From Ensifer sp. PDNC004 (GTDB lineage: Bacteria; Pseudomonadota; Alphaproteobacteria; Rhizobiales; Rhizobiaceae): a stretch of DNA of 64,000 bases. The position numbers were made by a program, and so were the translations under genes. Numbering within the stretch: position 1 is the stretch's first letter; every line of letters starts with the position of its first letter. Below, in pieces: positions 12,384 to 45,705 of this stretch. A model generated the notes under the pieces. That model saw only the letters and a list, made by a program, of their open reading frames with translations, ran no database searches and had not been told where the DNA came from. The stretch lies in contig NZ_CP070352.1 in NCBI RefSeq assembly GCF_016919405.1, positions 372,001 through 436,000 of the forward strand, given 5' to 3'.

Positions 12384-12431
12384 TTCGCAAACCTTCCCAG
12401 AACTTGATCAAACCAATCGGTAGAAACACGT

Positions 12432-12457: not shown

Positions 12458-12508
12458 TTTTGATATGTGCGCCTTTTTCTCATCGGCGCAAGGGCGATCG
12501 GTGGCCGA

Positions 12509-14098: not shown

Positions 14099-14108
14099 CA
14101 TCATTCTC

Positions 14109-14792: not shown

Positions 14793-14920
14793 AGCGGTTA
14801 TTCCTCCCGTTTCCGCCCAGTAAAATTTTTTTGATTTAAGCAAACTTATTTATATACTCCAAGCGAATTTTTGCGGTATCGACAATTCAGACCGCAAGCG
14901 AAGAGGGATGGAATCGCCAC

Positions 14921-15994: not shown

Positions 15995-16007
15995 GGGAGG
16001 AGCGACC

Positions 16008-18483: not shown

Positions 18484-18550
18484 GATGGGACAACAGGACG
18501 ATTTCTCGTCCGTCCCCTTCTAAGATATCGAGTAACCCCAAGGACATAGC

Positions 18551-19057: not shown

Positions 19058-19064
19058 GACAGCA

Positions 19065-19090
19065 GGCCGGAGGCGTCATCGCCTTCGGCC
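19065..19090. terminator. Hairpin between convergent genes
   Basis: GGCCGGAGGCG (19065-19075) pairs with CGCCTTCGGCC (19080-19090), eleven pairs including one G-U, with loop TCAT and ATTTCCC after it. It lies between the GAF gene (plus) and the sugar ABC ATPase gene (minus). Confidence 0.6.
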
Positions 19091-19099
19091 ATTTCCCGG

Positions 19100-20191
19100 T
19101 CAGCGGCCGATCGCCCCACCGGTATCCTTCAGGAAAAAGTGCATCTTCTCCGCCTCGATCGGCACCGCGATCTGGTCTTCGGGGCCTATACGTGACGCAG
19201 CGTGAACCTGCGCTGTGAAGGCTGCGGGCCCGACTCGGCCGAGCGCCAGCGTATGCGGGCCGAGTGGTTCGATGTCGCGAACGGTCAGCCTGACTGTCGG
19301 CACATTGGCGTCCGTCGCCATCGTATGTTCCGGCCGGATGCCGAGCACGACGGCCTTGCCAACGTATGCACCGAGCTTTTCGGCACGGCTTTCCGGGATA
19401 GCAACCGCCACATCGCCATCCGCTATAAACTGCATCCCGCCATCGCCGCGTTCCAGCCGCCCCTCGAGGAAATTCATGCTTGGCGCGCCAATGAAGGCGG
19501 CGACGAAAAGATTGGCCGGCGCTTCGTAAAGCGTGATGGGATCCGCCGCCTGCTCGATACGGCCCTGGTTCATGACGACGACGCGGTCGGCCATGGTCAT
19601 GGCTTCCACCTGGTCGTGGGTCACGTAAACGGCAGTCGTCTGAAGACGGCGGTGCAAGAGCTTGATTTCCGTGCGCATTTCGATGCGCAGCTTGGCATCC
19701 AGATTGGACAACGGCTCGTCGAAGAGGAACACATCCGGTTGGCGCACAATCGCCCGGCCGATCGCCACGCGCTGGCGCTGGCCGCCGGAAAGCGCGCTCG
19801 GCTTGCGATCGAGATAGGCGCCGAGATTGAGGATGCGCGCGGCATCCGTCACGGCCTTGTTGATTTCCACCTTCGGCGTGCCGCGCACTTTCATGCCGTA
19901 ACCTATGTTCTCGGCGACGGTCATGTGCGGATAGAGCGCGTAGTTCTGAAACACCATGGAGCAGTTGCGCAGGCCTGGCCTAAGGTCTGTCACGTCGCGG
20001 TCGCCGATCCGGATCGAACCCGAGGTCGCCGTCTCAAGGCCGGCTATCATCCGGAGCGTCGTCGTCTTGCCGCAGCCGGAAGGACCGACAAGCACCACGA
20101 ACTCGCGGTCGGCAATGTCGAGATCGAGCGGCGGGATGACGGTGACGCTCCCGAAGGACTTGGTGATCTGCTGCAATCGGACCTGTGACAT
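19100..20191 (-). CDS. Sugar ABC transporter ATP-binding protein (UgpC/MalK type)
   Basis: A 363-aa ATPase of the CUT1 family. Walker [10 protein letters not shown], signature LSGGQRQR, Walker [15 protein letters not shown]-terminal TOBE/OB regulatory domain of about 120 residues follows (ending near [11 protein letters not shown]). Start at 20191 ([14 protein letters not shown]); the longer open frame runs over the stem-loop and the end of the binding-protein gene. Last gene of the deoR-led operon. Confidence 0.92.
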
Positions 20192-29830: not shown

Positions 29831-31633
29831 TCACGCGCCGATCGGCGCCGTCCGCTCGGCAAGCCAGCCGACCGTCTCCGGCTCAAGCAAGCCGTCGAGC
29901 TCCTGCGCGACGCGACGGTGATAGGCATCAATCCAGGTCCGCTCAGCCGTCGTCAGCAGGCCCAGATCAGCGAGCCGCAGGTCGATCGGCACCAGCGTCA
30001 GGCTCCGGAAGCTCAGGAACCCGTCGCCGTCGTCCACCACCTCCACCTGGTTCTCGATGCGGATGCCGTAGGCGCCGGCCTTGTAGTAGCCCGGCTCGAT
30101 CGTCGTCACCATGCCCGGCTTCAGCTCGATCTCGTTGACGCGCCGATCGAAGCGCTGCGGCTGTTCGTGTACCGAGAGAAAGTGACCGACCCCATGGCCA
30201 GTTCCGTGGTCATAGTCGAGACCGAGATCCCAGAGCGGGCGGCGGGCAAAGGCGTCGAGCTGATGGCCGAAGCTTCCCCTGGGGAATTTCAGCGACGCCA
30301 TGGAGATCAGCCCCTTGAGGACGGCTGTGTAGGCGCGGCGGATCTCGTCGCTGACCGGACCGATCGCCGTCGTGCGCGTGGCATCGGTGGTGCCGGTCAG
30401 ATACTGCCCACCGGAATCGAGCAGATAGATGCCATCCTTGAGGATCAGCCCGTTGCTCGCCTCGGTGGCTGCATAATGGCACATCGCCGCGTGGCCGCCG
30501 GCCGCCGAAATCGACCGAAAACTCGGCTCGACGAAGCTTTCGGCCATCTGGCGATAGGCGAGGATGCGCTCTTCCGCTTCCAGTTCGCTCACCGGTTTGC
30601 CGCTCGCCTCCCGTTCTTCGGCGTGCCGCTCGAGCCAGGCAAAGAAGCGAACCCAGGCGGCGCCATCCAGACGGTGACAATCCCGGAAGCCCGCAAGCTC
30701 GGTCGCGTTCTTATGCATCTTGGCGAGCGTGATCGGGCTCTTCGCGAGCTGCACGGTGCCGCCTGCGGCGCGTGTGGCATGCGCGGTCGCCGACGGGGCG
30801 AATCCGGGATCGATCAAGGCGGTGCGCCCCGCCGCCATCACCGTGACACGATCAAGCAGCTGCCCAGGCTCGGCAATCGCAACATCCTCAAGCTCGAAGT
30901 CCGAGAGATCGTTCGGGAGCTTGCGATGATCGACCAGCCATTCCGTCTGCCCGGCGCGATCGAAGATCAGGAAGGATTGCGGCATCGGGTTGAAGGCGAC
31001 GTCGCGGCCACGGACATTGAGGAACCAGGCGATATTGTCCGGCTGCGCTTCGATCAGGAGGTCGGCTCCCTGCTCCGCCAGCATGGCGGCGATGCGGCGC
31101 TTCTTCTCAGCAACGCTCTCGCCGGAATTGGCGACCGGGAAGGCGGTGATCTTGCCGAGCGGCTTTTCCGGCTGGTCGGTCCAGATCGCATCGACAAGGT
31201 CCCCATCGACAGGCATCCAGACGCCGCCGGCCAGTTCGACCGAACGGCTGCAATCGGCATCCCAGGTGGACGGCAAAAGCATGGCGTTGAAACCGACACG
31301 TTCGCCCTTGCGCAGATTGTTCTTCAGCCAATCCTTGAGCGGAGCGTCATAGAAGTGCTCGATCGTGAAGGTGCCGAGATCCACTTCGTCTCGCACCTGC
31401 ACCTGGTAGCGACCATCGACGAAGATCGCCGCGCGGTCGCGCATGACGATCGCCACGCCGGCCGAACCGGTAAACCCGGAGACGAAGGCCAGGCGATGGT
31501 CATGCGGCGCGCAATACTCGCCCTGATGTTCGTCGAAGCGCGGCACGACGTAGCCGTCGAGCCCGGTTTCCGCAAGTTTGCGGCGTAGCGCGCCGATGCG
31601 GCCGGAGATGTCCGGCCTTGCTCTCGTATCCAT
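29831..31633 (-). CDS. pepP: Xaa-Pro aminopeptidase (aminopeptidase P, M24B)
   Basis: A 600-aa cytosolic metallopeptidase that removes the N-terminal residue in front of proline. It has two creatinase-like N-terminal domains and a C-terminal pita-bread domain, the three-domain form like animal cytosolic aminopeptidase P. Metal ligands are visible: the aspartates in YLLDSGGQY and GTTDATRT, the histidine in HGTGHGVGHFLSVHE, and glutamates in TTIEPGYY and RIENQVEV. Last gene of the peptide-transport operon, 24 bp after the second ATPase gene, so imported X-Pro peptides are the likely substrates. Confidence 0.93.
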   Translation of the reverse strand: MDTRARPDISGRIGALRRKLAETGLDGYVVPRFDEHQGEYCAPHDHRLAFVSGFTGSAGVAIVMRDRAAIFVDGRYQVQVRDEVDLGTFTIEHFYDAPLKDWLKNNLRKGERVGFNAMLLPSTWDADCSRSVELAGGVWMPVDGDLVDAIWTDQPEKPLGKITAFPVANSGESVAEKKRRIAAMLAEQGADLLIEAQPDNIAWFLNVRGRDVAFNPMPQSFLIFDRAGQTEWLVDHRKLPNDLSDFELEDVAIAEPGQLLDRVTVMAAGRTALIDPGFAPSATAHATRAAGGTVQLAKSPITLAKMHKNATELAGFRDCHRLDGAAWVRFFAWLERHAEEREASGKPVSELEAEERILAYRQMAESFVEPSFRSISAAGGHAAMCHYAATEASNGLILKDGIYLLDSGGQYLTGTTDATRTTAIGPVSDEIRRAYTAVLKGLISMASLKFPRGSFGHQLDAFARRPLWDLGLDYDHGTGHGVGHFLSVHEQPQRFDRRVNEIELKPGMVTTIEPGYYKAGAYGIRIENQVEVVDDGDGFLSFRSLTLVPIDLRLADLGLLTTAERTWIDAYHRRVAQELDGLLEPETVGWLAERTAPIGA

Positions 31634-31657
31634 GATGTCTTTCCTATCGAGTGAGTT

Positions 31658-32671
31658 TCAGGCGTCGCCGACCGTCTCGGCGAAATGGCAGGCGGTCATG
31701 CCGGATCCGACCGGACGCAGCGCCGGCTTTTCGTGGCGGCAAAGCTCGGTCGCGTGCGGGCAACGCACATGAAAGGGGCAGCCGGGCGGGATGGCGAGCG
31801 GGCTCGGCAGTTCGCCCGACAGTGCCGGCGCACGACGCCTGGCGCCCGGGTCGAGCGATGGTGCGGCCGCAAGCAGCCCCTTGGAATAGGGATGCATCGG
31901 CTTCGAAAACAGCGCCTCCGACGGTCCGATCTCGACGATGGCGCCGAGATAGATGACGGCGACGCGGTGCGAGACATGGCGCACGAGGCGAAGGTCGTGC
32001 GCGACGAACAACACCGTCAGGCCGAGCTCGTCCTGAAGCTCGATCAGCAGATTGACGACCTGCGCCTGCACCGAAACGTCGAGTGCCGAGACCAATTCGT
32101 CCGCGACGAGACAGGTCGGCTCCAGCGACAGCGCCCGCGCAATGCCGATGCGCTGCCGCTGGCCACCGGAGAATTCATGCGGGAACTTGTCCGCGGCTCC
32201 ATCGGGCAACCGCACGAGCTCGAGCAGCTCGTCCACCCTGCGGTCGATCGCCGCACCCTCGCGCATGCGGTGCACCGTGATCGCCTCTCGCAGGGTATCG
32301 CGCACGGTCATGCGCGGATTGAGCGAGGTGTAGGGGTCCTGGAACATCATCTGGACGCGCCGGTTGTAGGCGCGCCGCCGTGCCCCCTTGAGGCCCACGA
32401 CACTCTCGCCCTCAAACAGGATATCGCCTGATGTCGGCCGGTGCAGGCCGGCGATCAGGCGCGCGAGTGTCGACTTGCCGCAGCCGGACTCGCCGACGAT
32501 CCCGAGCGTCTCGCCGGGCATCACATCGAGATCGATGCCGTTAACCGCCGAGACGACCTGCTGCGGGCGCCGGGCCAGCGTGTCCGACAACGAACGCCGT
32601 TTCTCGAACTGGATCGATAGCGCACGGAGCGAGAGCAAGGGAGCGCCGCTGGTTGACATAGGCATAGTCAT
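31658..32671 (-). CDS. Oligopeptide ABC transporter ATP-binding protein (OppF type)
   Basis: A 337-aa ATPase. Walker [10 protein letters not shown], signature FSGGQRQR, Walker [13 protein letters not shown], in which leucine replaces the usual proline (DEL rather than DEP). The full C-terminal oligopeptide extension with [14 protein letters not shown] is present. It overlaps the preceding ATPase gene by ATGA. Confidence 0.92.
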
Positions 32672-33681
32672 TGCGCCGCCTCCCGCGGTCCGAAATGCGC
32701 TTGGGCATCCTCAAGATGATGGCAGGCAACGAGCCGCGACGAGCCGATCGCTTCGAGCGACGGGCGACGATCGGGACATTCACGCCCAGCGACCGGACAG
32801 CGGGCGCTAAAGGCGCAGCCGGGCGGCAGCGCGTTTAGCGCCGGCGGCGCACCGGGGATCGAATAGAGCGGCGTTCGCGGGGCGACGTCGCGCGGGATCG
32901 AACGCAGCAAGCCCAGGGAATAGGGATGGCGCGCATCGGCGATCACATCCGTCGTCGTGCCGACTTCGCAAAGCCTGCCGCCATACATGACGGCGACACG
33001 ATCGCAGGTTTCGGCAACGACGCCCATGTCGTGGGTGACGAGGATCACCGCCATGCCGAGATCGCGGCTCAGCGACTGGATGAGCCTGAGGATCTGGTCC
33101 TGAATGGTGACGTCGAGCGCCGTCGTCGGCTCGTCTGCAAGCAGCAGCTTCGGATTGGAAGCAAGCGCAATCGCAATCATCACCCGCTGGCGCATGCCAC
33201 CGGAGAACTCGTGCGGGAAATCGTCGAGACGATTGCGCGCGCCGGGAATGCCGACGAGATCGAGCAGTTCGATCGCGCGCGCCTTGCGCGCCCTCGCATC
33301 GAGATCCGTATGGGCCACGAGGTTTTCCGAGATCTGCAGGCCAACGGTCAGCAGCGGATTGAGCGACGACATTGGCTCCTGGAAGATCATCGCGATCTCA
33401 CGGCCGCGAATGCGGCGAAGCCGGGCCTCGTCGAGCGGGACGAGGTCCTGGCCGTTCCAGAGGATCTCGCCGGACACGCGGCCGCGCGGTCGGATGATAC
33501 CGAGGATCGAGCGCAGCGTGATGCTTTTGCCCGAACCGGATTCGCCGACGAGCCCGAGGATCTCGCCCTGCCCGACCTGAAACGAGACGTCGTCGACCGC
33601 CACCAGCGGCCGCTCCTTCGTCCCGAACTCGGTTCGCAGATGCCTGACATCGAGCACGACGGATTTTTCTGTACTTCTCAT
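32668..33681 (-). CDS. Oligopeptide ABC transporter ATP-binding protein (OppD type)
   Basis: A 337-aa ATPase. Walker [10 protein letters not shown], signature FSGGMRQR, Walker [13 protein letters not shown], and the C-terminal extension with [14 protein letters not shown]. It pairs with the downstream OppF-type ATPase and follows the permease gene after 1 bp. Confidence 0.93.
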
Positions 33682-33682
33682 C

Positions 33683-34552
33683 TCAGCGCCCCTTCGGTCG
33701 AAGCAGATCGGCGAGCGCGTCGCCGACGAGGCTGAAGCCGAGCCCGGTCAGGACGATGGCTATGCCCGGCATCAGGCTCATCCACCAGGCCGTCATCAGG
33801 AAATTGCGTCCCTCGGCGATCAGCACGCCCCATTCGGCGGCCGGCGGCTGCGCGCCGAGGCCGAGATAGCCGAGCGACGAGCCGAGCAGGATCGCGAGCG
33901 CCATGTCGGTCATCCAATAGACGAGGATCGGCGAGATCGCGTTCGGCAGCAGATGGCGGAAGATGATGCGGCGATCGGAATAGCCGAGCACGCGACCGGC
34001 GGCGGCATAGTCGTTGGCCTTCTGCGCCATGATTTCGGCGCGCGTCAGCCGGGCGTAATAGACCCAGTTCACCGCGGTGATCGCCACATACATGTTGACG
34101 AGGCCCGGGCCGAGGACGGCGACGATCGCGATCACCAGGACCAGGAACGGAAAGGTGATGATCGCGTCGACGCAGCGGCCGAAGATCACGTCGGCGATAC
34201 CGCCGTAGTAGCCGACGAACGCGCCGACGGTGAGCCCGATCAGGAGCGCGAAGATCGTCGCGAAGAAGGCCATCTGCATATCGACCCGATAGGCCCAGAT
34301 GACGCGCGAAAGCACGTCTCGGCCGAAATTGTCGGTGCCGAAGGGATGCGCAAGGCTTGGTCCCTGTTGGATCGCCTGGAGATCGAAGGCCAGCGGATCA
34401 TAGGGCGCAAAGAGCTGAGGAAACAGCGCAAGCGCGAGCGACAGGCCGAGAATGGCGATGCCGATCACGAAGGACGGGCGGGCGAAGGCGCGTGCCAGAA
34501 AGGCGGTCAGCCGCCCCTGCGTCCGCGCATGGGATTGCGTCAGAACCGTCAT
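33683..34552 (-). CDS. Oligopeptide ABC transporter permease (OppC type)
   Basis: A 289-aa inner-membrane permease with six helices. Motifs are HPFGTDNFGRDVLSRVIW and the cytoplasmic loop DYAAAGRVLGYSDRRIIFRH. ATGA overlap with the upstream permease stop (34549-34552). Confidence 0.92.
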   Translation of the reverse strand: MTVLTQSHARTQGRLTAFLARAFARPSFVIGIAILGLSLALALFPQLFAPYDPLAFDLQAIQQGPSLAHPFGTDNFGRDVLSRVIWAYRVDMQMAFFATIFALLIGLTVGAFVGYYGGIADVIFGRCVDAIITFPFLVLVIAIVAVLGPGLVNMYVAITAVNWVYYARLTRAEIMAQKANDYAAAGRVLGYSDRRIIFRHLLPNAISPILVYWMTDMALAILLGSSLGYLGLGAQPPAAEWGVLIAEGRNFLMTAWWMSLMPGIAIVLTGLGFSLVGDALADLLRPKGR

Positions 34553-35490
34553 GATTGGCGAAGCCTCGGATCGAGCCAGGATTGCACGACATCCGTCAAA
34601 AGGAAGACGACGGAGACGAGCACGGCAAAGGTGAGCGTCAGGCCCTGGATCAGCGGATAGTCGCGGGCAAAGATCGCCTCCAGCATCAGCCGTCCGACAC
34701 CGGGAATGGCAAAGACCGTCTCAGTCACCAAGGTGCCGCTCATCAGGTTGCCGATCGAAAGCCCCAGCAGCGTCACCGTCGAGACCAGCGCATTGCGCAG
34801 CACATGCCGGGTCATGATGATGCGCGGCGACAGGCCCTTGGCACGGGCGAATTGCACGTATTCCGCGTCGAGCACCTCGATCAGAGAGGCCCGGAGATTG
34901 CGCAGGATGATCGCCGAGGTATAGAGCGCGACGCTGAGTGCGGGCAGGATCAGGTGGTAGAGGTTGGCAAGAAAGCTCTTGCCGTAGCCGCCGACCGGAA
35001 ACCAGCGCAGATGCGCCGCAAGCACGGTCAACAGCAGGAGCCCGATATAGAAGACCGGCATGGACAGGCCGACCTGAAAGACGCCACGGATGGCGACATC
35101 GACCGGACTGTTGACGCGCGATGCCGCAAGAAAGGCGAGCGGACCGGCAAGCAAGACCGCGAGCACCACCGAATAGAGCGCCAGGAATATCGTCGTCGGC
35201 AGCCGGCTGAGAATAACCTCGGTGACCGGCGCCTTCAGCATGATCGAACGGCCGAGATCGCCGGTCAGCGTGTTCTTGACAAAGACGAGGAACTGCATCG
35301 GCAGCGGCTGGTCGAGACCGAGATTGTGCCGGATCTGTTCAAGCTGAGCATCGGTCGCCTTGGCCTCGGCCATGGCGATCGCCGGGTCACCCGGCAGCAT
35401 GCGCACGAGCAGGAAGATGAAGATCATTACCAACAGGAACGTCGGGATGATCTGCAGCAGCCGTGCCACGAGATAGGAAAGTGAGGGCAT
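34549..35490 (-). CDS. Oligopeptide ABC transporter permease (OppB type)
   Basis: A 313-aa permease. Start at ATG 35490 (MPSLSYLVARLLQIIP) with AAGG upstream; a TTG five codons earlier is less likely. The N-terminal helix, MLPGDPAIAM motif, QVGLSMPVFYIGLLLL and loop YVQFARAKGLSPRIIMTRHVL are all typical. Confidence 0.92.
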   Translation of the reverse strand: MPSLSYLVARLLQIIPTFLLVMIFIFLLVRMLPGDPAIAMAEAKATDAQLEQIRHNLGLDQPLPMQFLVFVKNTLTGDLGRSIMLKAPVTEVILSRLPTTIFLALYSVVLAVLLAGPLAFLAASRVNSPVDVAIRGVFQVGLSMPVFYIGLLLLTVLAAHLRWFPVGGYGKSFLANLYHLILPALSVALYTSAIILRNLRASLIEVLDAEYVQFARAKGLSPRIIMTRHVLRNALVSTVTLLGLSIGNLMSGTLVTETVFAIPGVGRLMLEAIFARDYPLIQGLTLTFAVLVSVVFLLTDVVQSWLDPRLRQS

Positions 35491-35512
35491 GGTTCCAACC
35501 TTCAACGGAAAA

Positions 35513-35532
35513 CCGGGCGGCTTGCCGCCCGG
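35513..35532 (-). other. Stem-loop between peptide-binding-protein and permease genes
   Basis: CCGGGCGGC (35513-35521) and GCCGCCCGG (35524-35532) form a tight hairpin, followed in minus-strand RNA by UUUUCCGUU. It is a terminator-like element inside the operon and may let the binding protein be made in excess. Confidence 0.6.
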
Positions 35533-35553
35533 CTCTCTCGGATCGTTCCGCTA

Positions 35554-37131
35554 TCAGTCGGCGCGCCAGGCTTCAGAGAAGTCGTTGGCGCCGAGCGGCG
35601 TCTGGACGTAGCCTTCGATCGACTTCGACACGGCGACGGCAAAGGGCGTTTCGAACAGGAAGAGCAGCGGCGCTTCCGCCGCGTAGATCTCCTGCATGCG
35701 CTTGTATTCGTCCTTGCGCTTGGCCGGATCGGTCTCGACGTTGGAGGCTTCAAACAGCGTGTTGAATTCCTGGTTGTTCCAGCCGGTGCCGACGGCCTGG
35801 CGCTGCTTGTAGTAGCCGAGCCAGCCGGTCACCTGCGCCGGATCGTTGACGTCGTTCGCCCAACCGTAGGTATGGATGTCGAAGTCGCCGGACCGGTTCT
35901 TCTCGCCGCGGGTCGGGTTGTCGACCTGCTCGACCTTGAGGTTGACACCGAGCGGCGCCCACATCTGCTGGAGTGCGGTAAACAGCGTCGCATCGTCGGC
36001 GCTGCCTGCAAGCGTGGTAAGCTTCACCTCGAAGCCGCCGCTGAGACCGGCTTCCGCCAGCAGCTGCTTGGCCTTTTCCGGATCATAGGGATAGAGCGGC
36101 TCGGGGCCATAGTGAAGCTGCGTCGCCGCCGACATCAGCGAGGTCATCGGCTTACCCGTATCGAAGGTCACGAGCTTGATCAGCACGCTCTTGTCGGTCG
36201 CATAGTTCAGCGCCTGGCGCACCTTGGCGTCGGCAAGCGGGTTCTTCGATCCGTCCTTCGTCGTCTCGCGCGTGTTGATAGGCGCGTAGACGATGCGGGT
36301 CGAGGGGAAGAGCTCCATCTTCAGGTTCGGATCGGCACCGAGTTCGCCGACGCGGGCAAACGGAATGAACTCGGCGGCATCGACCTCGCCGGCCTGCAGC
36401 TTGAGGATACGGGTCGCATCGTCAGGAATGACGAGGAATTCCACTCGGTCGAGATAGGGCAGCGGCTTGCCGTCTTCGCCCTGGCGCCAGTAGTTCGGGT
36501 TGCGCTCGAAGCTCATGCTCGAGCCCTGCACATGGCTCTTCATCACGAAGGGGCCAGATGTCACCGGACCGGACGAGAAGAAGGCCCGCGCCTTTTCCTG
36601 GTCGGTGGCACCTGCCGCCTTTTCGAAGGCCGCCTTCGGCATGATACCGGTGTTGAAAGTCGCAAGGATCGAGATGATCGTCGGGTCGGGGTTCTTCAGC
36701 GACACGGTGATCTTGTTGCCATCGGTCGTGACCTTGTCGACCGCGCCGAGCAGCCCGGCCCAGGGGCCGAGTTCGGCATTGCGCGCCCGGTCGAGCGAGA
36801 AGACGACGTCCGCGCCGGTCAGGTCTGAGCCGTCAGAGAACTTGAGCCCGTTTCTGAGAGTAAGGGTGATGGTCTTGCCGTCGGCCGAAACCTCGTGACC
36901 CTCGGCGAGACCCGGCACGATCGAACCGTCAGGACCGTTGCGCAGCAGCGTCTCGTAGAGACCGTTGACCATCCAGAGATCGGGATTGCGGTCGGCGTAA
37001 ACGGGATCGATGACGGTCGAGTCGTCGTAGCGCGCGAAGGTCATTGCGCCGCCGCGCTCGATCGCAAAGGCCGAGGTGGCCGCAAGCAGACCCAGCGTCG
37101 TGCCGAGCAGAATAGGCAATATACGTTTCAT
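35554..37131 (-). CDS. Family 5 periplasmic oligopeptide-binding protein
   Basis: A 525-aa SBP_bac_5 protein. A Sec signal peptide ends at TSAFA-IE near residue 23. Start 37131 has AAGGAGG about 6 nt upstream. The mature part shows the family order GGAMTFARYDDSTVIDP, VPGLAEGHEVSADGKTITL and the DWGYANDVND-like ligand region (YGWANDVNDPAQV). First gene of the Opp/aminopeptidase P operon. A 17-bp palindromic block stands 59 bp upstream of its start. Proline-containing peptides are suggested by the linked pepP and racemase-like genes. Confidence 0.9.
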   Translation of the reverse strand: MKRILPILLGTTLGLLAATSAFAIERGGAMTFARYDDSTVIDPVYADRNPDLWMVNGLYETLLRNGPDGSIVPGLAEGHEVSADGKTITLTLRNGLKFSDGSDLTGADVVFSLDRARNAELGPWAGLLGAVDKVTTDGNKITVSLKNPDPTIISILATFNTGIMPKAAFEKAAGATDQEKARAFFSSGPVTSGPFVMKSHVQGSSMSFERNPNYWRQGEDGKPLPYLDRVEFLVIPDDATRILKLQAGEVDAAEFIPFARVGELGADPNLKMELFPSTRIVYAPINTRETTKDGSKNPLADAKVRQALNYATDKSVLIKLVTFDTGKPMTSLMSAATQLHYGPEPLYPYDPEKAKQLLAEAGLSGGFEVKLTTLAGSADDATLFTALQQMWAPLGVNLKVEQVDNPTRGEKNRSGDFDIHTYGWANDVNDPAQVTGWLGYYKQRQAVGTGWNNQEFNTLFEASNVETDPAKRKDEYKRMQEIYAAEAPLLFLFETPFAVAVSKSIEGYVQTPLGANDFSEAWRAD

Positions 37132-37189
37132 CTCACTCCTCCTTTTGACCGCAGCCGTCATCGATCGTGTGCCAAACACGCTTATTGGA

Positions 37190-37206
37190 TATTGGATCCA
37201 ATTTTT
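37190..37206. promoter_or_regulatory. Operator copy 1: TATTGGATCCAATTTTT
   Basis: The core ATTGGATCCAAT (37191-37202) is a perfect 12-bp palindrome, preceded by another ATTGGAT at 37184. The same 17 bp occur, inverted, at 39207-39223 upstream of the racemase-like gene. It lies 59 bp before the binding-protein start and probably binds the nearby GntR-type regulator. Confidence 0.7.
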
Positions 37207-37304
37207 CTTAGTGTTTTTTGCCGCCGACGGATTGCCGCGAAGACGTTCTTGTAGTTCCCCTTTTCAAGAAGGCCGGCACGCGATCTGATCGGCTTGCCGA
37301 ACCA

Positions 37305-37323
37305 ACTTTAGCTGGACTAAAGT
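37305..37323. promoter_or_regulatory. Palindrome upstream of the XRE-cupin gene
   Basis: ACTTTAG (37305-37311) and CTAAAGT (37317-37323) form a perfect inverted repeat with a 5-bp spacer, 35 bp before the regulator ATG. A likely autoregulatory operator of the XRE-cupin protein. Confidence 0.6.
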
Positions 37324-37358
37324 ACATCGATAGACGTGAGTCAAGCGGAAAGAAAGTC

Positions 37359-37979
37359 ATGCCCCTGAAGATCGAAGAGGCGCCCGAAGCCCATGAAGGC
37401 GCCTCCCTCCCCGAAGCCTCGACACCCGCCTCGCTCGGGCAAATGCTCAGAGCCCGCCGCAAGGAAATCGGCAAGACCATGAAGGACGTGGCGCGCGAGG
37501 CCGGGCTGACGGAGGGCTTCATCAGCCAGATCGAGCGCGGCATTTCCACCCCGTCGCTGATCTCGCTTTACAACGTCGCCAACGCGCTCGGCACCAGCGT
37601 CGATACCTTCCTGTCGCAGCCGCCGCAGCATTCGCATTCGATGGTGTCGCATGCCGGCGAACGCCCCGGCTACAATGTCGAAACGAAAGAACGCGTCTAC
37701 GAACTGATCGAGCGCGGCTTTCCGGGCGCTGCGCTCAATGGCTGCATCACCCATATGCCGCCGGGCTATGCGTCGGAACTGACCAGCCACGAGGGCGAGG
37801 ATTTCCTCTACCTGATCGAGGGCGAGATGCTCTACCAGATCGACGGCAAGGACTATCTCTTAAAGGCCGGCGACACGCTGCACTTCCCCGCCTCGCTGCC
37901 CCACCGCGCCCGCAATGTCGGCGCGGGACCGGCCCGCGAACTCTGGGTCGGCACAACCCGGATCATCAAGGAAGACTGA
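37359..37979 (+). CDS. XRE-family regulator with cupin domain
   Basis: A 206-aa regulator: helix-turn-helix at about 27-80 (LRARRKEIGKTMKDVAREAGL, FISQIERGISTPS) and a cupin barrel at about 120-200 (GYASELTSHEGEDFLYLIEG, LKAGDTLHFPASLPHRARN). The ATG at 37359 is preferred because an upstream TTG frame covers the palindrome. Divergent from the peptide transporter operon and convergent with the racemase-like gene. It may sense a peptide or proline derivative. It is a second, distinct paralogue of the regulator at 14109. Confidence 0.9.
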   Translation: MPLKIEEAPEAHEGASLPEASTPASLGQMLRARRKEIGKTMKDVAREAGLTEGFISQIERGISTPSLISLYNVANALGTSVDTFLSQPPQHSHSMVSHAGERPGYNVETKERVYELIERGFPGAALNGCITHMPPGYASELTSHEGEDFLYLIEGEMLYQIDGKDYLLKAGDTLHFPASLPHRARNVGAGPARELWVGTTRIIKED

Positions 37980-38016
37980 ACCAGCGGAACCATCCAAAGG
38001 ACTGGGCGGAAAGGTA

Positions 38017-38037
38017 CGGGCCGCACAAGGCGGCCCG
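38017..38037. terminator. Hairpin between convergent genes
   Basis: CGGGCCGC (38017-38024) pairs with GCGGCCCG (38030-38037) around a 5-nt loop. It lies between the XRE-cupin gene and the convergent racemase-like gene. T tracts are short. Confidence 0.5.
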
Positions 38038-38049
38038 CAAGGTCAGGCC

Positions 38050-39081
38050 TTACTGCTTTCGCGGCCAGGTATCGGCGAGACGGTAGCCGGCCGGCCACGG
38101 ATCGGCCGGGTCGAGCATCACTTGGTGGGTGCCGGTGATCCAGGCACGGCCGGAGATTTCGGGCACGATCGCCGGGCGTCCGCCGACGGTGGTTTCGCCG
38201 ACGATGCGGCAATTGAAGGTCGAATCGATGATCGAGTGACCGTTGAAGCGCTGGCCGACCTTCATCAGCCCGCGCGCGTGCAGCACCGCCATGCGCGCCG
38301 AGCAGCCGGTACCGGTCGGCGAGCGGTCGAGCTTGGCCGGCTGGATGACGACCGTGTTGCGACCATGCAGAACGCCGTCCTTTTCCTCGACCGGCAGCGT
38401 CAGCTGGCAGAAGGAAATGTGAGCCCATTCCGGATTTTCCGGATGGGTGAAGCCGAGCTGTTCGTTGGCCGCGCGGGTGATCTTGATGCCGGTTTCGGCA
38501 AGTTCGCGCGCCTCGTCCGGCGTCACCGAGAAACCAAGAGCGCGGGCGTCGGTGATGACGAAGCTATCGCCGCCGTAGGCGGTATCGACGGTCAACGTGC
38601 CCAGACCCTCAACCTCGAGCTTGGCGTCCAGCTTGTCGGCAAAGGACGGCACGTTGGTGACGGTGATGCGCTCGGCTTTGCCGTTACGGCACTCGGCAAC
38701 GACGTTGACCAACCCGCCCGGCGCTTCCAGCACCATGCGCGTTTCCGGCTCCTGCATCGGCACGATGCCGCTGTCGAGCAGGACGGTCGAAACGCAGATC
38801 GAGTTGGACCCCGACATCGGTGGGGTATCTTCGGGCTCCATGATGATGAAGCCCATCGTCGCGCGCGGGTCCTTCGGCGGCACAAGCAGGTTGATGTGGC
38901 GGAAGACGCCGCCGCGCGGCTCGTTGAGCACGAAATTGCGCAGCGTCTGATCTTCGGCAATGAAGCGGCGCTGTTCCCAGAGCGTGTTTCCGGGCGGCGG
39001 CGCGACGCCGCCGACGATGACGTCGCCGACTTCCCCCTCCGCGTGGCAAGAAACGATGTGAACGACCTTGTTGCTGCGCAT
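38050..39081 (-). CDS. Proline racemase-superfamily enzyme with Ser/Cys active site (hydroxyproline epimerase/dehydratase type)
   Basis: A 343-aa member of the proline racemase superfamily, which holds proline racemase, 4-hydroxyproline 2-epimerase and trans-3-hydroxyproline dehydratase. The first catalytic position is serine (Ser90 in [11 protein letters not shown], where epimerases have MCGH); the second is cysteine (Cys260 in [12 protein letters not shown]). Ser/Cys members are known and may epimerise hydroxyprolines with mixed specificity. Start 39081 has AAGGAG upstream. Alone on its strand, with operator copy 2 upstream and the GntR-type gene divergent. Linked peptide import and aminopeptidase P suggest hydroxyproline or proline released from peptides. 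Confidence 0.85.
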
Positions 39082-39206
39082 GCCCTTCTCCTTCGGTGCT
39101 GGTGGACGGGCGCCACCCGGGCGCGCCATGCTTTCGCGCTGGCTACGCTCCGCTCTTCGCCGGAGATGATAGCGCGTCCGCGCCCGCCCGGCGAAAACAG
39201 TCATAG

Positions 39207-39223
39207 AAAAATTGGATCCAATA
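39207..39223. promoter_or_regulatory. Operator copy 2: AAAAATTGGATCCAATA
   Basis: Exact reverse complement of the 17-bp block at 37190-37206, with the palindromic core ATTGGATCCAAT at 39211-39222. It lies in the divergent region between the racemase-like gene (start 39081) and the GntR-type gene (start 39372 or 39294). Confidence 0.7.
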
Positions 39224-39371
39224 TACAATCTGAAATATTCGAATTTGCTGCGAGAACCGAACGCGTCTGTTGCCCGGCGCCTGAATTGGACCTATGACCA
39301 TTGGCCAAGCGCGCGAAAACGCTTCCGAATTCGCCGAGCCCTCACGGTTCGGCCAGCAGGATTTGAACACG

Positions 39372-40037
39372 ATGAAACTCGACGCCGTCGATGTCAGGCA
39401 AGCCGCCTCCGCCGCCGATATCGTCTATGAGGCCCTGCGCAAGGCGATCATCGAAGGTGACCTCGCCGAGGGCGAGAACCTGCGTCAGGACCACATCGCC
39501 CAGATGTTCAACACCAGCCGCATTCCAGTGCGCGAGGCGCTTTCGCGGCTGGAGCAGCATGGGCTGATCACCACGGAGCGCTACAAGGGTGCCGTCGTCG
39601 CCGGCCTCTCGATCGAGGAAATCGAGGAGATCTTCGAGTTCCGCGCGCTCATCGAGGCGGAGGTCATTCGGCTTGCGATACCCAATCTCGACCGCCGCAC
39701 ACTCGATCTTGCACGCCAGCATTGCGAGGAGTTCGAGCGGGAGGAAAATTCCGACCGCTGGGGCGAAATCAACCGCAATTTCCACTACAGCCTCTACGAG
39801 GCAGCCCGTCGCCCCTATTACCTGCAGATTGTCCGCGCCTCGCTCGATCGCATCGACCGTTACCTGCGGGCGCAGCTGACGCTGACCTCGGGCGTTGCGC
39901 GCGCGCGCCGCGAACACAAGGCGATACTGGATGCCTGCATTGCGCGCGACGCGGAGCGAGCCAGCGCCTTGACGCGTGACCATATCCTCGACGCCGGTCG
40001 CTCGCTGACCGTCTTCCTGAGAGACCAACGAGGCTAG
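39372..40037 (+). CDS. GntR-family regulator, FadR/FCD subfamily
   Basis: A 221-aa regulator. N-terminal winged helix (about 14-75; VYEALRKAIIEGDLAEG, IPVREALSRLEQHGLI) followed by an all-helical FCD ligand domain with the metal-site pattern (FRALIEAEVIRLA, NRNFHYSLYEAA, EHKAILDACIARD). ATG 39372 is chosen for its AGGA and normal N-terminal length; ATG 39294 would add 26 residues. Divergent from the racemase-like gene across operator copy 2. It is the best candidate for binding both copies and coordinating the two transcription units. Confidence 0.9.
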   Translation: MKLDAVDVRQAASAADIVYEALRKAIIEGDLAEGENLRQDHIAQMFNTSRIPVREALSRLEQHGLITTERYKGAVVAGLSIEEIEEIFEFRALIEAEVIRLAIPNLDRRTLDLARQHCEEFEREENSDRWGEINRNFHYSLYEAARRPYYLQIVRASLDRIDRYLRAQLTLTSGVARARREHKAILDACIARDAERASALTRDHILDAGRSLTVFLRDQRG

Positions 40038-40248
40038 CGGCGCGGTTTTCCCGTGGCTTTGGCCGACCATCATAATAGTTTGATTTACATATCGTTTTAT
40101 CGTGTTTCATTCCGGATCGATGTTCGATCTTTCACAGCAGTGCTCCCGCTGAAATTGCGCCGCACGTCGACTGCTCTTCGGTTGACAAGCGGGGCGGAAG
40201 CCTGAAAAGTGAAGCCTCTATCGAGACCGGCAGCGTTGGGAGGACTTG

Positions 40249-43200
40249 ATGTCTGTGCGCGCGTTTTTCGGCCTTTCCACCCTTTTCCTGTCGCTTGTGA
40301 CCGCCGGCGTCCCCGCCGTTGCCCAGGAGAGTGGACGGCAGATCGAGATCACCAAGGACGGCGACTATTTCGGTTTCGACCTCAGGACCGAACAGAACGT
40401 CTCGCTCGACGAATGCCAGCAGACATGCATCGCGGACCAGTCCTGCCGCGCGTTCACCTACAATCCCAAGGTCAAGTGGTGCTTCCTCAAGTCCGATTAT
40501 AACCAGCTCAACACTTTCCCCGGCGCGATTGCCGGCAAGGTCGTGCAGCCGCAGGCCACACAAGCCGATATCGGCGCACCGCCGCGCCTGAATTTCCTGT
40601 CGGATCAGCTGCTGCAGGACGCCCGCAACACCAAGGCCAATCTGGCGCTCGCCGACGACCAACAGGGCATGGGCGTGAATACGCTCATCGACATGGCGCG
40701 CGGTCAGGCCGGCATGGGCAATATCGAGAATGCGTTGAGGGCCTTCCAGGGCGCGCTGGCGATCAATCCGGATGACGGCGAACTCTGGCTGGAGGCGGCG
40801 CGCACCGCGAACCGCATCACCAACAATTCAAGCGTATCGATCCAGGCGGCCATCGCCGCGATCAACGGCTATGAACTCACCCGCACCACCGAGAGCCGGG
40901 CGCATGCACTCGCCGTCATGGCGAAATCGCTGGAAGGCGCCGAGAATTTCCGCGCCGCATTGAACGCCTACAAGGCGAGCCTCGAATTGGTGAAGGCGAA
41001 ATCGGTCGAGGCGGCCTATCTCGACCTCAAGCAGCGCAAGGGCTTCCGCGTCGTCGAACATACGATCGATTCCGACGCTGCGACGCCGCGCGCCTGCGTG
41101 CAGTTCTCCGAGCAGCTTCTAAAGAGCGGCGCCGACTATGCCTCGTTCGTCACCGTCAATGGCGCTGCGCCAAAGGCGCTTGAGGCCAAGGGCGACCAGA
41201 TCTGCATCGAGGGCCTTTCGCATGGCGAACGCTACAAGCTGACCGTTCGCAGCGGCCTGCCCTCCACCGTCGACGAAGTGCTCGAAGCGCCCGTGACCCT
41301 CGACATCTATGTCGCTGACCGTGCGCAGATGGTGCGCTTCACCGGCGACAGCTTCGTGCTGCCGTCGACCGCGCGCCGCGGCATCCCGCTCGTCTCCGTC
41401 AACACCGACAGCGCCAAGCTGAAACTCTACCGCGTTGGCGACCGCAGCATCGCCCAGGTGCTGCAGAGCTCGCAGTTCCTGACGCAGCTCGATGGCTACA
41501 GCGCCCAGCGCATCGAGGATGAGATCGGCGAACTCGTCTGGCAGGGCTCGATCGATATCGAGCGTGACGTCAACAAGGAGGTTGTCACCAGCTTCCCGGT
41601 CGACGAGGCGCTGCCCCAGCGCAAACCCGGCGTCTATGTGCTCACCGCCGCGCCGACAACCGGCGTCAGCCAGGAATGGGACGCGCGCGCGACACAGTGG
41701 TTCGTCGTTTCCGATATCGGCATCTCCACCTATGCCGGCACCGACGGGTTGAACGTCTTCGTGCGTTCGCTTGCCACAGCCGAGCCGATCGAAGGCGTAG
41801 AACTGCAGCTCGTCGCCAAGAACAACGAGATCCTCGGCACGGCCGTGAGCGATGACGACGGCCGCGTCACCTTCACCGCCGGCCTGATCCGTGGCACGGC
41901 CGGCCTGACGCCTGCGGTGATCACGGCCAAGAAGGGCGAAGACGATTACGTCTTCCTCGACATGAGCCGCGCCGGCTTCGACCTTTCCGACCGCGGCGTC
42001 ACCGGACGCGCGGCGCCCGGCGCCATCGACATTCTCGCCTGGACCGAACGCGGCATCTACCGCGCCGGCGAAACCGTGCATGCGGCAGCGCTTGCCCGTG
42101 ACGTCGACGGCATGGCGATCGAAAACCTGCCGCTCACCTTCGTCTTCCTCCGCCCGGATGGTGTCGAATACCGCCGCATGACCAGCGCCGGCGGCAAGCT
42201 TGGAGGCCATACACTCGAACTCGACACCCAGGCAAACGCCATGCGCGGCACCTGGACGATGCAGATCTTCACCGATCCGAAGTCGCCTGCGATCGGCGAG
42301 AAGCAGTTCCTCGTGGATGACTTCGTGCCGGATCGCACCGAATTCGACCTCACCAGCGACGCCAAGGAAATCGCTGTCGGCGAGACGGCGAGTGTGGCGG
42401 TCGACGGGCGCTATCTCTATGGCGCGCCGGCTGCCGGGCTCGAACTCGAAGGCGAAGTGACGATCAAGCCGACGCGCGAAAATGCCGCCTTCAAGGGCTA
42501 CTCGTTCGGACTTGCCGACGAAGAGGCAAGCGAAGACACGCGCCTGCCGCTCGAAGAGCTTTCGTCGCTCGACGAGGAAGGCAAATCCAGCTTCGACGTC
42601 CTCATCGACGAAGTCCCCTCGACCACGCAGTTGCTTAATGCCACGGTGACCGTCCGCATGCGCGAAGCCGGTGGCCGCGCCGTCGAGCGCTCGCTGAAAC
42701 TGCCGGTGCGCGCCGAAGGCCCAATGCTCGGCATCAAGCCGGAATTCGAAGGCGAACTGGCTGAGAACTCGGTCGGCAAGTTCCGCATCATCGCCGTCGA
42801 TCCGGCCGGTGCCAAGCTCGCCATGCCCGGGGTCCTCTGGAAGCTGATCAGCGTCGAGCGGAACTATCACTGGTACCGCGACGGCAGCGCCTGGAAGTAC
42901 GAACCCGTCGTCACCACCAAGCAGGTGGCCAACGGCAGCGTCGATCTGACGGAAGACGGCGGCGACATCTCCGTGCCCGTTGGTTGGGGGCGGTATCGCC
43001 TGGAAGTCGAGACGGCCGCGGTCGATGGCCCGACCTCGAGCCTCGAATTCGACGCCGGCTGGTACGTTGCCGCCACCTCGACGGAAACGCCTGACGGCTT
43101 GGAAATCGCGCTCGACAAGGAGAAATACGCAGTCGGCGACACGGCCAAGCTCAAGGTCTCGCCGCGTTTTGCCGGTGAGCTGCTGGTGACCGTCGGTACC

Positions 43201-45705
43201 GAGAACCTGATCACGACGCAGACGGCATCGATTGCCGCGGAGGGCGGCGAAGTCGAGCTGCCGGTCACCGACGCCTGGGGCGCCGGGGCGTATGTCACGG
43301 CCACGCTCTATCGGCCAGGCGACGCCCAGGAAAGCCGCATGCCGATGCGCGCCATCGGCATCAAGTGGCTTTCGGTCGATCCGGCCGATCGCGCACTTGC
43401 CGTCACGCTCGGTGCGCCCGAGAAGATGGAGCCGCGCCAGCCGCTCGATATCAGCCTTCAGGTCGCCGGTGCCGGCGCCAATGAAGAAGCCTATGTGACG
43501 ATCGCCGCCGTCGACGTCGGCATCCTCAACCTCACCCGCTACGAGCCGCCGAACCCCGAATCCTGGTATTTCGGACAGCGCCAACTCGGCCTTGAAATCC
43601 GCGACCTCTACGGCCGCCTGATTGACGGCTCGCTTGGCGCGACCGGAAAACTGCGCACCGGCGGCGACGGCGGCCAGGTGGCACTTCAGGGCAGCCCGCC
43701 CACGGAAAAGCTGGTCGCCTTCTTCGAAGGGCCGGTTCAGCTCGACGGCGACGGCAAGGCAACGGTTAGCTTCGACATTCCGCAGTTCAACGGTACGGCG
43801 CGGCTGATGGCCGTCGCCTGGACGAAATCCGGTGTAGGCCACGCCACGCGCGACGTGGTGATCCGCGATCCGGTCGTCGTCACAGCCAGCCTGCCGCGGT
43901 TCCTGGCACCCGGAGACCGGTCGGACCTGAGACTCGATATCGCCAACACCGACGCACCAGCCGGCGACTACCAGATCCATGTGACGACCAGCGGCCAGGC
44001 GACCGTCGAGCAACCGGGCACGGGCAGCACCGTCACTCTGGACCAGGGCGGCCGCTCCTCGATCACCTTGCCGGTGGTCGGGCAATATCCCGGCAGCGGC
44101 GTCGTCACAGTGGCACTGACCGGCGCCAACGGCCTTTCGCTCGAGCAGTCGCTCGACCTGCTCGTGCGTCCGGCAACCCTGCCGGTGACTGAGCGGCGGG
44201 TGGTATCGATCGCGCCGGGAAGCAGCCTGACGGTCGACGGGCAGTTGCTCGCCGACAGCATCCTGCAGGGCGCCTCGGTCAACCTCAGCGTCACCCGCTC
44301 CGCCGCCTTCGACATGCCGGCGCTGCTGATGACGCTCGACCGCTATCCCTACGGCTGCACGGAGCAGACGACCAGCCGCGCGCTGCCGCTGCTCTACCTG
44401 AGCGAACTCGCCAAGCAGTCCGGGCTTGCCGACGACGAGGGCGTGACCAAGCGGGTGCAGGAGGCGATCTATCGTGTGCTCTCCAACCAGTCTTCGTCGG
44501 GAAGCTTCGGCCTTTGGGGGCCGGGCTACGGCGACCTGTGGCTCGACGCCTATGTCACCGATTTCTTGACTCGGGCCCGCGAGCAGAAATACGACGTGCC
44601 GGAGGCCGCGATGGTTCAGGCGCTCGAAAACCTGCAGAACGGCGTCAGTTACGACACCAATGCCAAGGATCGCGGCAACGAGATCGCCTATGCGCTCTAC
44701 GTGCTTGCCCGCAATCGCAAGGCGGCGATCAACGATCTTCGCTATTACGCCAACACGCTGATCAACGACTTCCCGACGCCGCTCGCCAAGGCCCATATCG
44801 CCGCAGCGCTTTCGCTGTATGGCGATGCTCAAGGGGCGCAGGACACGTTTGCCAACGCGGCGAACATGTCGACGGGTCTCGTCAATGTCAGCCTGTCGCG
44901 CTCCGACTACGGCTCGTCGCTGCGTGAGGGCGCGGCGGTGCTGGCGCTCGCAGCCGAAAGCCGACCGGTCCCGCCGATCGTTCCGGAGCTGTCGAAAATG
45001 GTCGCCCGCGAATGGGAACAGAAGACCTATACCAGCACCCAGGAACAGGCCTGGATGCTGCTTGCCGCCCGCGCCATCCAGAATGGCGACGAGGACATGG
45101 CGCTCGACGTCAACGGCGCATCGAAGACCGGCAGCTATGCCGCCCAGATGACGGGCGACGCGCTCATCACCCATCCGGTGGTGATCCGCAACCAGGGGGC
45201 AGATCCGGTCTCGGCCGTGGTCACCACGGTGGCCGCCCCAGCCCAACCGCTTTCGGCCGGCGGTGACGGCTTCACCATCGAGCGCACCTACTACACGCTC
45301 GACGGTGCCGAGGCGAACGTCATGGAAGTGCGGCAGAACGAACGCTACGTCGTCGTGCTGAAGGTCACGGAAGCCAACGACTGGCCGTCGCGCGTGCTGG
45401 TTACCGACCTTCTGCCGGCCGGTTTCCAGATCGACAATCCGAGCCTCGTCGACAGCGCACAGCTCAGCAATTTCGAGTGGCTCGGTGAAATCACCGCGAC
45501 CCACACGGAATTCCGCAACGACCGCTTCGTCGCAGCACTCGACCGCAGCATCGGATCCGGCCGCGAAGTTACGCTCGCCTATGTCGTGCGCGCGGTAACA
45601 CCGGGCACCTACGATCATCCGGCCGCAACCGTCGAGGACATGTACCGGCCGCAGCTTTCGGCCCGCACAGCGACCGGGCGCATGGAGGTGCTGGCGGCGC
45701 AATAG
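40249..45705 (+). CDS. yfhM: Bacterial alpha-2-macroglobulin family protein (YfhM type) with N-terminal PAN-like domain
   Basis: An 1818-aa periplasmic protein. The signal peptide ends near AVA-QE (about 25) and has no lipobox, unlike E. coli YfhM. A cysteine-rich PAN/apple-like module follows at about 30-95 (DECQQTC, DQSCRAFTYNPKVKWC). Then come repeated macroglobulin beta domains. The thioester motif YGCTEQ is intact, with Cys at about 1370, followed by the helical thioester domain and a C-terminal receptor-like domain. Such proteins are thought to trap proteases that breach the outer membrane. ATG 40249 has GGGAGG upstream. It is 8 bp before pbpC, the usual partner. Confidence 0.93.
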   Translation: MSVRAFFGLSTLFLSLVTAGVPAVAQESGRQIEITKDGDYFGFDLRTEQNVSLDECQQTCIADQSCRAFTYNPKVKWCFLKSDYNQLNTFPGAIAGKVVQPQATQADIGAPPRLNFLSDQLLQDARNTKANLALADDQQGMGVNTLIDMARGQAGMGNIENALRAFQGALAINPDDGELWLEAARTANRITNNSSVSIQAAIAAINGYELTRTTESRAHALAVMAKSLEGAENFRAALNAYKASLELVKAKSVEAAYLDLKQRKGFRVVEHTIDSDAATPRACVQFSEQLLKSGADYASFVTVNGAAPKALEAKGDQICIEGLSHGERYKLTVRSGLPSTVDEVLEAPVTLDIYVADRAQMVRFTGDSFVLPSTARRGIPLVSVNTDSAKLKLYRVGDRSIAQVLQSSQFLTQLDGYSAQRIEDEIGELVWQGSIDIERDVNKEVVTSFPVDEALPQRKPGVYVLTAAPTTGVSQEWDARATQWFVVSDIGISTYAGTDGLNVFVRSLATAEPIEGVELQLVAKNNEILGTAVSDDDGRVTFTAGLIRGTAGLTPAVITAKKGEDDYVFLDMSRAGFDLSDRGVTGRAAPGAIDILAWTERGIYRAGETVHAAALARDVDGMAIENLPLTFVFLRPDGVEYRRMTSAGGKLGGHTLELDTQANAMRGTWTMQIFTDPKSPAIGEKQFLVDDFVPDRTEFDLTSDAKEIAVGETASVAVDGRYLYGAPAAGLELEGEVTIKPTRENAAFKGYSFGLADEEASEDTRLPLEELSSLDEEGKSSFDVLIDEVPSTTQLLNATVTVRMREAGGRAVERSLKLPVRAEGPMLGIKPEFEGELAENSVGKFRIIAVDPAGAKLAMPGVLWKLISVERNYHWYRDGSAWKYEPVVTTKQVANGSVDLTEDGGDISVPVGWGRYRLEVETAAVDGPTSSLEFDAGWYVAATSTETPDGLEIALDKEKYAVGDTAKLKVSPRFAGELLVTVGTENLITTQTASIAAEGGEVELPVTDAWGAGAYVTATLYRPGDAQESRMPMRAIGIKWLSVDPADRALAVTLGAPEKMEPRQPLDISLQVAGAGANEEAYVTIAAVDVGILNLTRYEPPNPESWYFGQRQLGLEIRDLYGRLIDGSLGATGKLRTGGDGGQVALQGSPPTEKLVAFFEGPVQLDGDGKATVSFDIPQFNGTARLMAVAWTKSGVGHATRDVVIRDPVVVTASLPRFLAPGDRSDLRLDIANTDAPAGDYQIHVTTSGQATVEQPGTGSTVTLDQGGRSSITLPVVGQYPGSGVVTVALTGANGLSLEQSLDLLVRPATLPVTERRVVSIAPGSSLTVDGQLLADSILQGASVNLSVTRSAAFDMPALLMTLDRYPYGCTEQTTSRALPLLYLSELAKQSGLADDEGVTKRVQEAIYRVLSNQSSSGSFGLWGPGYGDLWLDAYVTDFLTRAREQKYDVPEAAMVQALENLQNGVSYDTNAKDRGNEIAYALYVLARNRKAAINDLRYYANTLINDFPTPLAKAHIAAALSLYGDAQGAQDTFANAANMSTGLVNVSLSRSDYGSSLREGAAVLALAAESRPVPPIVPELSKMVAREWEQKTYTSTQEQAWMLLAARAIQNGDEDMALDVNGASKTGSYAAQMTGDALITHPVVIRNQGADPVSAVVTTVAAPAQPLSAGGDGFTIERTYYTLDGAEANVMEVRQNERYVVVLKVTEANDWPSRVLVTDLLPAGFQIDNPSLVDSAQLSNFEWLGEITATHTEFRNDRFVAALDRSIGSGREVTLAYVVRAVTPGTYDHPAATVEDMYRPQLSARTATGRMEVLAAQ

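Follow-up and report, generated by a model that had tools for sequence, protein, structure and literature searches.

Two neighboring transcription units of Ensifer sp. PDNC004 carry the same 19-bp element in their promoters, and the element is unique to this locus in the genome. The units lie in a 64,000-nucleotide stretch (contig NZ_CP070352.1, positions 372,001 to 436,000 of the forward strand; the window below): one is a six-gene operon encoding a peptide ATP-binding cassette (ABC) importer and an aminopeptidase P, and the other is a gene for an enzyme of the proline racemase superfamily. Comparison of sequences makes it probable, in our judgment, that they form a regulon under the adjacent GntR/FCD regulator, with which the bacterium would import hydroxyproline (Hyp)-containing peptides, open them by aminopeptidase P, and dehydrate the trans-3-Hyp that is set free. 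The source genome has 6,778,202 bp in three contigs. Its closest named relatives are Ensifer adhaerens, whose strain L18 has a 99% identical enzyme (among the best 80 of 397 genome stretches).

A shared promoter element that accompanies a GntR gene

A first-pass annotation of the window described a 17-bp palindromic block in both promoters (37190 to 37206 and 39207 to 39223). The two blocks are exact reverse complements of each other, and the longest exact stretch common to both promoter sites is 20 bp. The sharing is therefore real, but its extent had to be redrawn, in that the conserved unit is 19 bp (Table 1), with the consensus ATTGKAT-ATTGG-ATCCAAT in relatives. Genome-wide, the 12-bp core, ATTGGATCCAAT, is found at two places, both at this locus, versus about 0.09 copies expected from base composition; a reversed control pattern of the core gave no matches across the genome. 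A pattern of the 14 outer-arm positions, searched genome-wide with at most one mismatch, returned only the same two places. A palindrome common throughout the genome, which the first-pass annotation had named as one observation that would refute its proposal, is thus ruled out by both core and arms.

We then compared 86 loci containing the enzyme gene, made up of 6 plasmid records (selected among 30 listed from 555 matches) and the 80 best-matching of 397 genome stretches. Absence of GntR from a locus was judged by tblastn (E value, 1e-20) within each fetched stretch, and related genomes were counted one by one, some of them possibly duplicates of named ones. A GntR ortholog (at least 53.7% identity) was present in 33 of the 86 loci, and every one of these 33 had a site matching at 13 or 14 of the 14 arm positions, with ATTGTATATTGGATCCAAT exact in 27. 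Among the 53 loci lacking such an ortholog, only that of Ensifer canadensis (L007) had a site of this quality. It was dropped as a counterexample because its record does encode a GntR ortholog (86%), some 27 kb away from the enzyme gene (NZ_CP083371.1, 1295500 to 1322764); both operators are intact there, and the separation presumably reflects an insertion or rearrangement. Near-identical enzymes (90 to 93%) that sit beside a GntR of the type found in Hyp clusters (e.g., L010, L021, L038, and L067) had no site at 13 of 14 positions or better. The tie between regulator and operator proposed in the first-pass annotation is supported by this pairing in all 33 loci.

A second sample consisted of 297 Rhizobiaceae genomes, taken evenly across a larger group. 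The exact arm pattern was found in 27 of these genomes, and the full element with the center ATTGG was found in 14. A close GntR (at least 67% identity) was encoded in 15 genomes; 14 of them are the same genomes that have the full element, and the fifteenth (L139) has it with one mismatch. The 13 genomes with arms only had other centers, and none was among the 15 with the close GntR. This result rules out the symmetric arms as the sole determinant and implies that the center belongs to the site. In ten genomes with more distant GntR relatives (52 to 59%), the best match within the 3.6-kb locus covered 15 to 18 of the 19 positions and lay within about 150 bp of the gene start in nine, the exception being L152 (300 to 750 bp away); these figures come without a shuffled control. 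The 12-bp core is mostly kept in this group and the outer arm varies, and the importer site of Aminobacter keeps the arms and not the center. Because of these two patterns, we prefer a 19-bp element containing three half-site-like repeats to a simple two-arm operator.

Alignments of the promoters gave a similar picture. Across 27 enzyme promoters, identity was 99% in the site, a value that is partly a matter of construction because the promoters were picked for having it (the set excludes L007, L037, Nitratireductor, and Devosia), versus 40% in the remaining columns. Across 14 regions between the importer operon and the divergent XRE-cupin gene (this locus and 13 others, picked by gene content), it was 96.6% in the site and 74.5% elsewhere. 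The Fisher value for the promoter alignment, 4e-23, takes no account of shared descent. All 13 syntenic loci also had the operator at the promoter of the solute-binding protein (SBP) gene, with 13 or 14 of the 14 arm positions matching. The treatment of the two units as one regulon gains support from this comparison of loci.

The main reason for assigning the regulon to Hyp is the company that the GntR gene keeps in relatives. In Nitratireductor (L043), the site lies between GntR and a run of DHDPS, oxidase, and epimerase genes, with a dehydratase gene downstream. In Devosia (L048), a 54% identical GntR and the site mark one end of a locus containing DHDPS, oxidase, epimerase, dehydratase, and OCD-family genes. 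Of 8 loci inspected within the group of ten genomes with 52 to 59% relatives, 7 had HypO, HypE, and/or DHDPS-type genes next to the GntR gene; some of the DHDPS-type neighbors match at only 29 to 30% identity, and the L188 locus had no Hyp gene match. In Rhizobium sp. Root1334 (L034), the GntR-site-dehydratase module forms the end of a Hyp cluster with a second GntR of its own. This adjacency to Hyp oxidase, epimerase, or deaminase-type genes agrees with the link to Hyp suggested by the first-pass annotation, and it implies that Hyp-containing peptides are most likely what the importer takes up and aminopeptidase P opens.

The enzyme, the importer, and the aminopeptidase

The enzyme exceeds the cutoff of the dehydratase model NF047722 (Table 1) and scores under the cutoffs of the epimerase models. 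Aligned to structure 4K7G (577 bits), it has the residue pair Ser90/Thr256, the same pair in the same numbering as in B9K4G4 of Agrobacterium vitis, a trans-3-hydroxyproline dehydratase of cluster 3 of the superfamily that likewise has Hyp-type genome neighbors (Zhao et al. 2014, PMC4113996). This alignment overturns the earlier label of a Ser/Cys racemase-like enzyme, which probably arose from the Cys located four positions past the Thr (SPTGTGC). Epimerization had been given as the likely reaction; we instead predict a trans-3-hydroxyproline dehydratase, for which some epimerase activity is conceivable.

The genome encodes three other members of the superfamily. One, over the cutoff for 4-hydroxyproline epimerase, belongs to a separate Hyp cluster at C1:1.225-1.237 Mb. 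This cluster also contains a cis-3-Hyp dehydratase (over cutoff), an oxidase, an amino acid-type SBP with likely ABC genes, an aldehyde dehydrogenase, the only Ldh_2 gene detected in the genome, a DHDPS-type gene, and a GntR; apart from the epimerase and the cis-3-Hyp dehydratase, these genes are named by similarity and after the published pathway. Reduction of proline ketimine has been shown for members of the Ldh_2 (MLD2) family (PMC4113996), and therefore the product of the locus enzyme has a likely taker in this cluster. The GntR of the window is only 31% identical to that of the cluster, which by its position is the likelier HypR. The two remaining superfamily genes (G000 C2:2431674-2432636 and C3:803574-804551) reached no NCBIfam cutoff. 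Separately, an OCD_Mu_crystall family gene at about 7320 to 8231 of the window (minus strand; 425 bits), one with two other family members in the genome, probably encodes an ornithine cyclodeaminase and is a possible proline metabolism neighbor some 22 kb away. It was rejected as a pyrroline-2-carboxylate reductase because by eye it looks like a true ornithine cyclodeaminase.

The importer is a full Dpp/Opp set, with an SBP of family 5, two permeases, and two ATPases with oligo_HPY. Small gaps or overlaps separate the genes, all of which run leftward from SBP to aminopeptidase P, in agreement with the six-gene operon described before. That description missed the XRE-cupin gene between the two units. 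Nickel import was rejected, since the SBP scores 168 bits in the NikA model versus a cutoff of 393. The best solved relative of the aminopeptidase P is 3ctz, Xaa-Pro aminopeptidase 1 (346 bits). The protein keeps the motifs with D406, D417, H480, E513, and E527, which we take to be its metal ligands, and inspection by eye found no obvious signal peptide.

A comparable set of genes occurs in another arrangement in Rhizobium miluonense and Rhizobium freirei (L075 and L081; about positions 9000 to 20000), where a GntR (43%), an enzyme of the dehydratase type, a peptide-type SBP, ABC genes, and an aminopeptidase P (52%) form a cluster that adjoins a cis-3-Hyp dehydratase gene. The gene order differs and there is no copy of the 19-bp site; the Pfam check of this cluster was made on L075. 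Three further loci (L061, L065, and L080) have peptide-type ABC genes beside the enzyme and no aminopeptidase P match. As a separate observation, L177 (about 10270 to 14500) and L178 (about 3000 to 8000) have a second peptide-type ABC gene set directly beside an importer-aminopeptidase operon, with no GntR; in L177, this second set comes with a second XRE-cupin gene.

Proposed mechanism and competing explanations

In the regulon that we propose, GntR would bind both 19-bp sites. At the enzyme promoter, a conserved TTTCTAT stretch follows the site, and the TTGTAT of the site itself is 17 bp before TATGAC. Bound GntR would thus cover a plausible promoter, and it probably represses the enzyme gene until a Hyp-derived inducer appears. 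Repression with release by a Hyp-type ligand is the likeliest mode by analogy with HypR of Sinorhizobium meliloti, a negative regulator with 4-Hyp as its inducer (White et al. 2012, as cited in PMC5343134), and with HypR of Streptomyces coelicolor (PMC6608401). The importer would bring short peptides into the cell, where aminopeptidase P would cut the Xaa-Pro or Xaa-Hyp bond. The enzyme would convert trans-3-hydroxy-L-proline to delta1-pyrroline-2-carboxylate. From this product, a reductase belonging to the separate Hyp cluster would form L-proline, and freed 4-hydroxyproline would be passed to the same cluster.

The XRE-cupin regulator would provide the importer promoter with a second input, by way of a palindrome of its own. 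The sequence ACTTTAG-N5-CTAAAGT, which emerged as conserved from the alignment of the 14 importer/XRE regions, occurs once in the genome at up to one mismatch, and it is kept in 13 of 13 syntenic loci. It is also present in two of the three genomes that have the importer operon without GntR and the enzyme nearby (L176, with one mismatch, and L177); in the third, L178, the palindrome was not found, and the XRE protein is only 49% identical. This palindrome, in the region between the importer and XRE genes, is probably the XRE-cupin's own operator, so two regulators likely act at the importer promoter. On the simplest interpretation, XRE-cupin is the older regulator of the operon, which gained the GntR operator on joining the Hyp enzyme.

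Several observations weigh against the regulon as we propose it. The importer-aminopeptidase-XRE operon of L176 to L178 occurs without the GntR (whole genome; E value, 1e-60) and without the GntR site, and the enzyme gene was not found in the fetched stretches (the L177 contig ends about 2 kb beyond XRE), so that the substrate of the importer need not be 3-hydroxyproline peptides. In DppA, Asp408 and Arg355 hold the two peptide termini, with the Asp holding the N terminus; Asp427 of the SBP aligns with Asp408, but Arg355 is not kept, and the closest solved relative of the SBP is AapF. The enzyme scores only 211.8 bits in NF045511, a second dehydratase model of the same name with a cutoff of 540. 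Because the cluster of Ser/Thr relatives is functionally mixed and partly promiscuous (PMC4113996), the dehydratase activity is to be read as a prediction. The arm pattern, at up to one mismatch, gives no operator copy at the genome's main Hyp cluster, and the core HypR targets hypE, hypO, hypD, and hypH are accordingly not matched. Among eight loci with weaker GntR relatives (39 to 45%), three have a site at 12 of 14 positions and five have none. Finally, no promoter of the sigma-70 type passed a consensus scan.

The strongest competitor is a general role of the importer and aminopeptidase in the use of proline-rich peptides, in which GntR merely adds Hyp as one inducer among several and the dehydratase is a neighbor sharing the regulator and not the substrate. 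We give this about one chance in a few. The XRE-SBP-opp-aminopeptidase operon of the three genomes just described would fit it, as would the XRE palindrome conserved in L176 and L177, and aminopeptidase P is almost specific for a penultimate Pro and cleaves Hyp less, according to the authors of PMC9166765. However, retention of the operator at the importer promoter in all 13 syntenic loci points to a link in substrate, and the differently arranged cluster of R. miluonense and R. freirei unites enzyme, importer, and aminopeptidase a second time.

A narrower form of our proposal, which we hold only tentatively and think rather unlikely as a whole, is dedicated scavenging of protease-resistant 3-Hyp peptides, such as Gly-3Hyp-4Hyp from collagen. 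The importer and an aminopeptidase P adapted to Xaa-3Hyp would then have been recruited as an older peptide operon by means of a second operator, leaving a promoter read both by XRE-cupin at its own palindrome and by a Hyp-responsive GntR. The first-pass annotation had suggested plant Hyp-rich glycoproteins as a possible source of the peptides. 3-Hydroxyproline is rare in plants. It is a minor residue of collagen, and Gly-3Hyp peptides reportedly survive intact in mouse plasma (PMC9166765), which would make enzymes able to open them useful.

It is improbable that the enzyme is mainly a 3- or 4-Hyp epimerase feeding D-amino acid oxidation; epimerases and promiscuous enzymes do occur in the same cluster of the superfamily (PMC4113996), but this protein surpasses the NF047722 cutoff and falls short of the epimerase cutoffs, and a separate 4-hydroxyproline epimerase is already encoded in the Hyp cluster. 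Least credible, to the point of being nearly dismissed, is binding of the shared site by XRE-cupin or another factor in place of GntR: the XRE-cupin gene does sit between the two units, but the site stands beside GntR in loci without an XRE match (e.g., L023, L024, L034, and L043), is absent where XRE and the operon occur without GntR (L176 to L178), and XRE has its own palindrome, so loci having one without the other rule out the 19-bp operator as that of XRE.

Relation to known regulons and features of the locus

The first-pass annotation knew of no description of this combination of genes, a claim that holds in part. Predicted HypR regulons of Alteromonadales and Aeromonas already contain AmpP, other proline peptidases, and a di/tripeptide permease, with collagenases also predicted in Alteromonadales (Leyn et al. 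2016, PMC5343134, in its account of these regulons). A Hyp regulon reaching up to peptides is therefore a known idea, and our proposal shares with it GntR-family Hyp regulation that extends to aminopeptidase P and peptide uptake. Those regulons differ in that they belong to other taxa and use the permease PdtP, whereas a five-gene ABC importer is found here; the present one is limited to two units, which include a 3-Hyp dehydratase and lack the 4-Hyp enzymes. HypR of S. coelicolor is, like the regulator here, of the FCD-type GntR family, a repressor that acts on a putative secreted collagenase gene and links Hyp catabolism with likely collagen use (PMC6608401). Its motif, CTNTGC(A/C)ATGTCAC, differs from the 19-bp element, and the passages of that paper on the regulon name no peptide importer or aminopeptidase P. 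Similarly, the account of B9K4G4 describes neither an importer/aminopeptidase operon nor a shared operator, and its passages on genome context give peptidase neighbors only for a Bacilli cluster (PMC4113996).

Among the papers listed in searches of open-licence literature, none described this exact gene set (subscription papers were outside that scope). As far as we have seen, what is new here is the GntR subfamily with its 19-bp site, the pairing of an ABC importer with a 3-Hyp dehydratase, the promoter with two regulators, and the recruitment history. The analysis offers a likely ligand class and a DNA site for a GntR subfamily of Rhizobiaceae, Aminobacter, Nitratireductor, and Devosia for which we found no description, as well as a substrate prediction for an orphan peptide importer. 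It also provides a clean natural example of operon recruitment, in that three relatives have retained the importer operon but lack the GntR site, which 13 sampled loci have.

Table 1. Features of the locus (positions in the window)
Feature	Position	Strand	Basis or remark
Aminopeptidase P (Xaa-Pro aminopeptidase), three-domain XPNPEP1 type, 600 amino acids	29831..31633	-	Pfam M24 + Creatinase_N/N_2 + M24_C
Peptide ABC importer ATPase, OppF/DppF-like	31658..32671	-	ABC_tran + oligo_HPY
Peptide ABC importer ATPase, OppD/DppD-like	32668..33681	-	ABC_tran + oligo_HPY
Peptide ABC importer permease, OppC-like	33683..34552	-	BPD_transp_1
Peptide ABC importer permease, OppB-like	34549..35505	-	BPD_transp_1 + BPD_transp_1_N
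Periplasmic SBP, family 5	35554..37131	-	SBP_bac_5, 309 bits; start set at 37131, after GGAGGA
Operator 1 (predicted), ATTGGAT-ATTGG-ATCCAAT	37184..37202	+	52 bp upstream of SBP start; includes 12-bp palindrome
Second palindrome, ACTTTAG-N5-CTAAAGT, likely XRE-cupin operator	37305..37323	+	Perfect palindrome; 35 bp before XRE gene
XRE-cupin transcriptional regulator gene	37359..37979	+	HTH_3 + Cupin_2; divergent from importer operon
Proline racemase superfamily enzyme	38050..39081	-	NF047722 T3LHypDht, 658.4 bits (cutoff 550); aligned to 4K7G
Operator 2 (predicted), ATTGTAT-ATTGG-ATCCAAT read on minus strand	39211..39229	-	Between enzyme and GntR genes
GntR/FCD regulator gene	39294..40037	+	GntR + FCD, both over Pfam cutoffs; orthologs align from ATG at 39372

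Adjoining the regulator gene, positions 40246 to 45705 encode a protein of 1819 amino acids with a CTEQ thioester-like motif, which by eye resembles a bacterial alpha-2-macroglobulin with an N-terminal PAN-like part.

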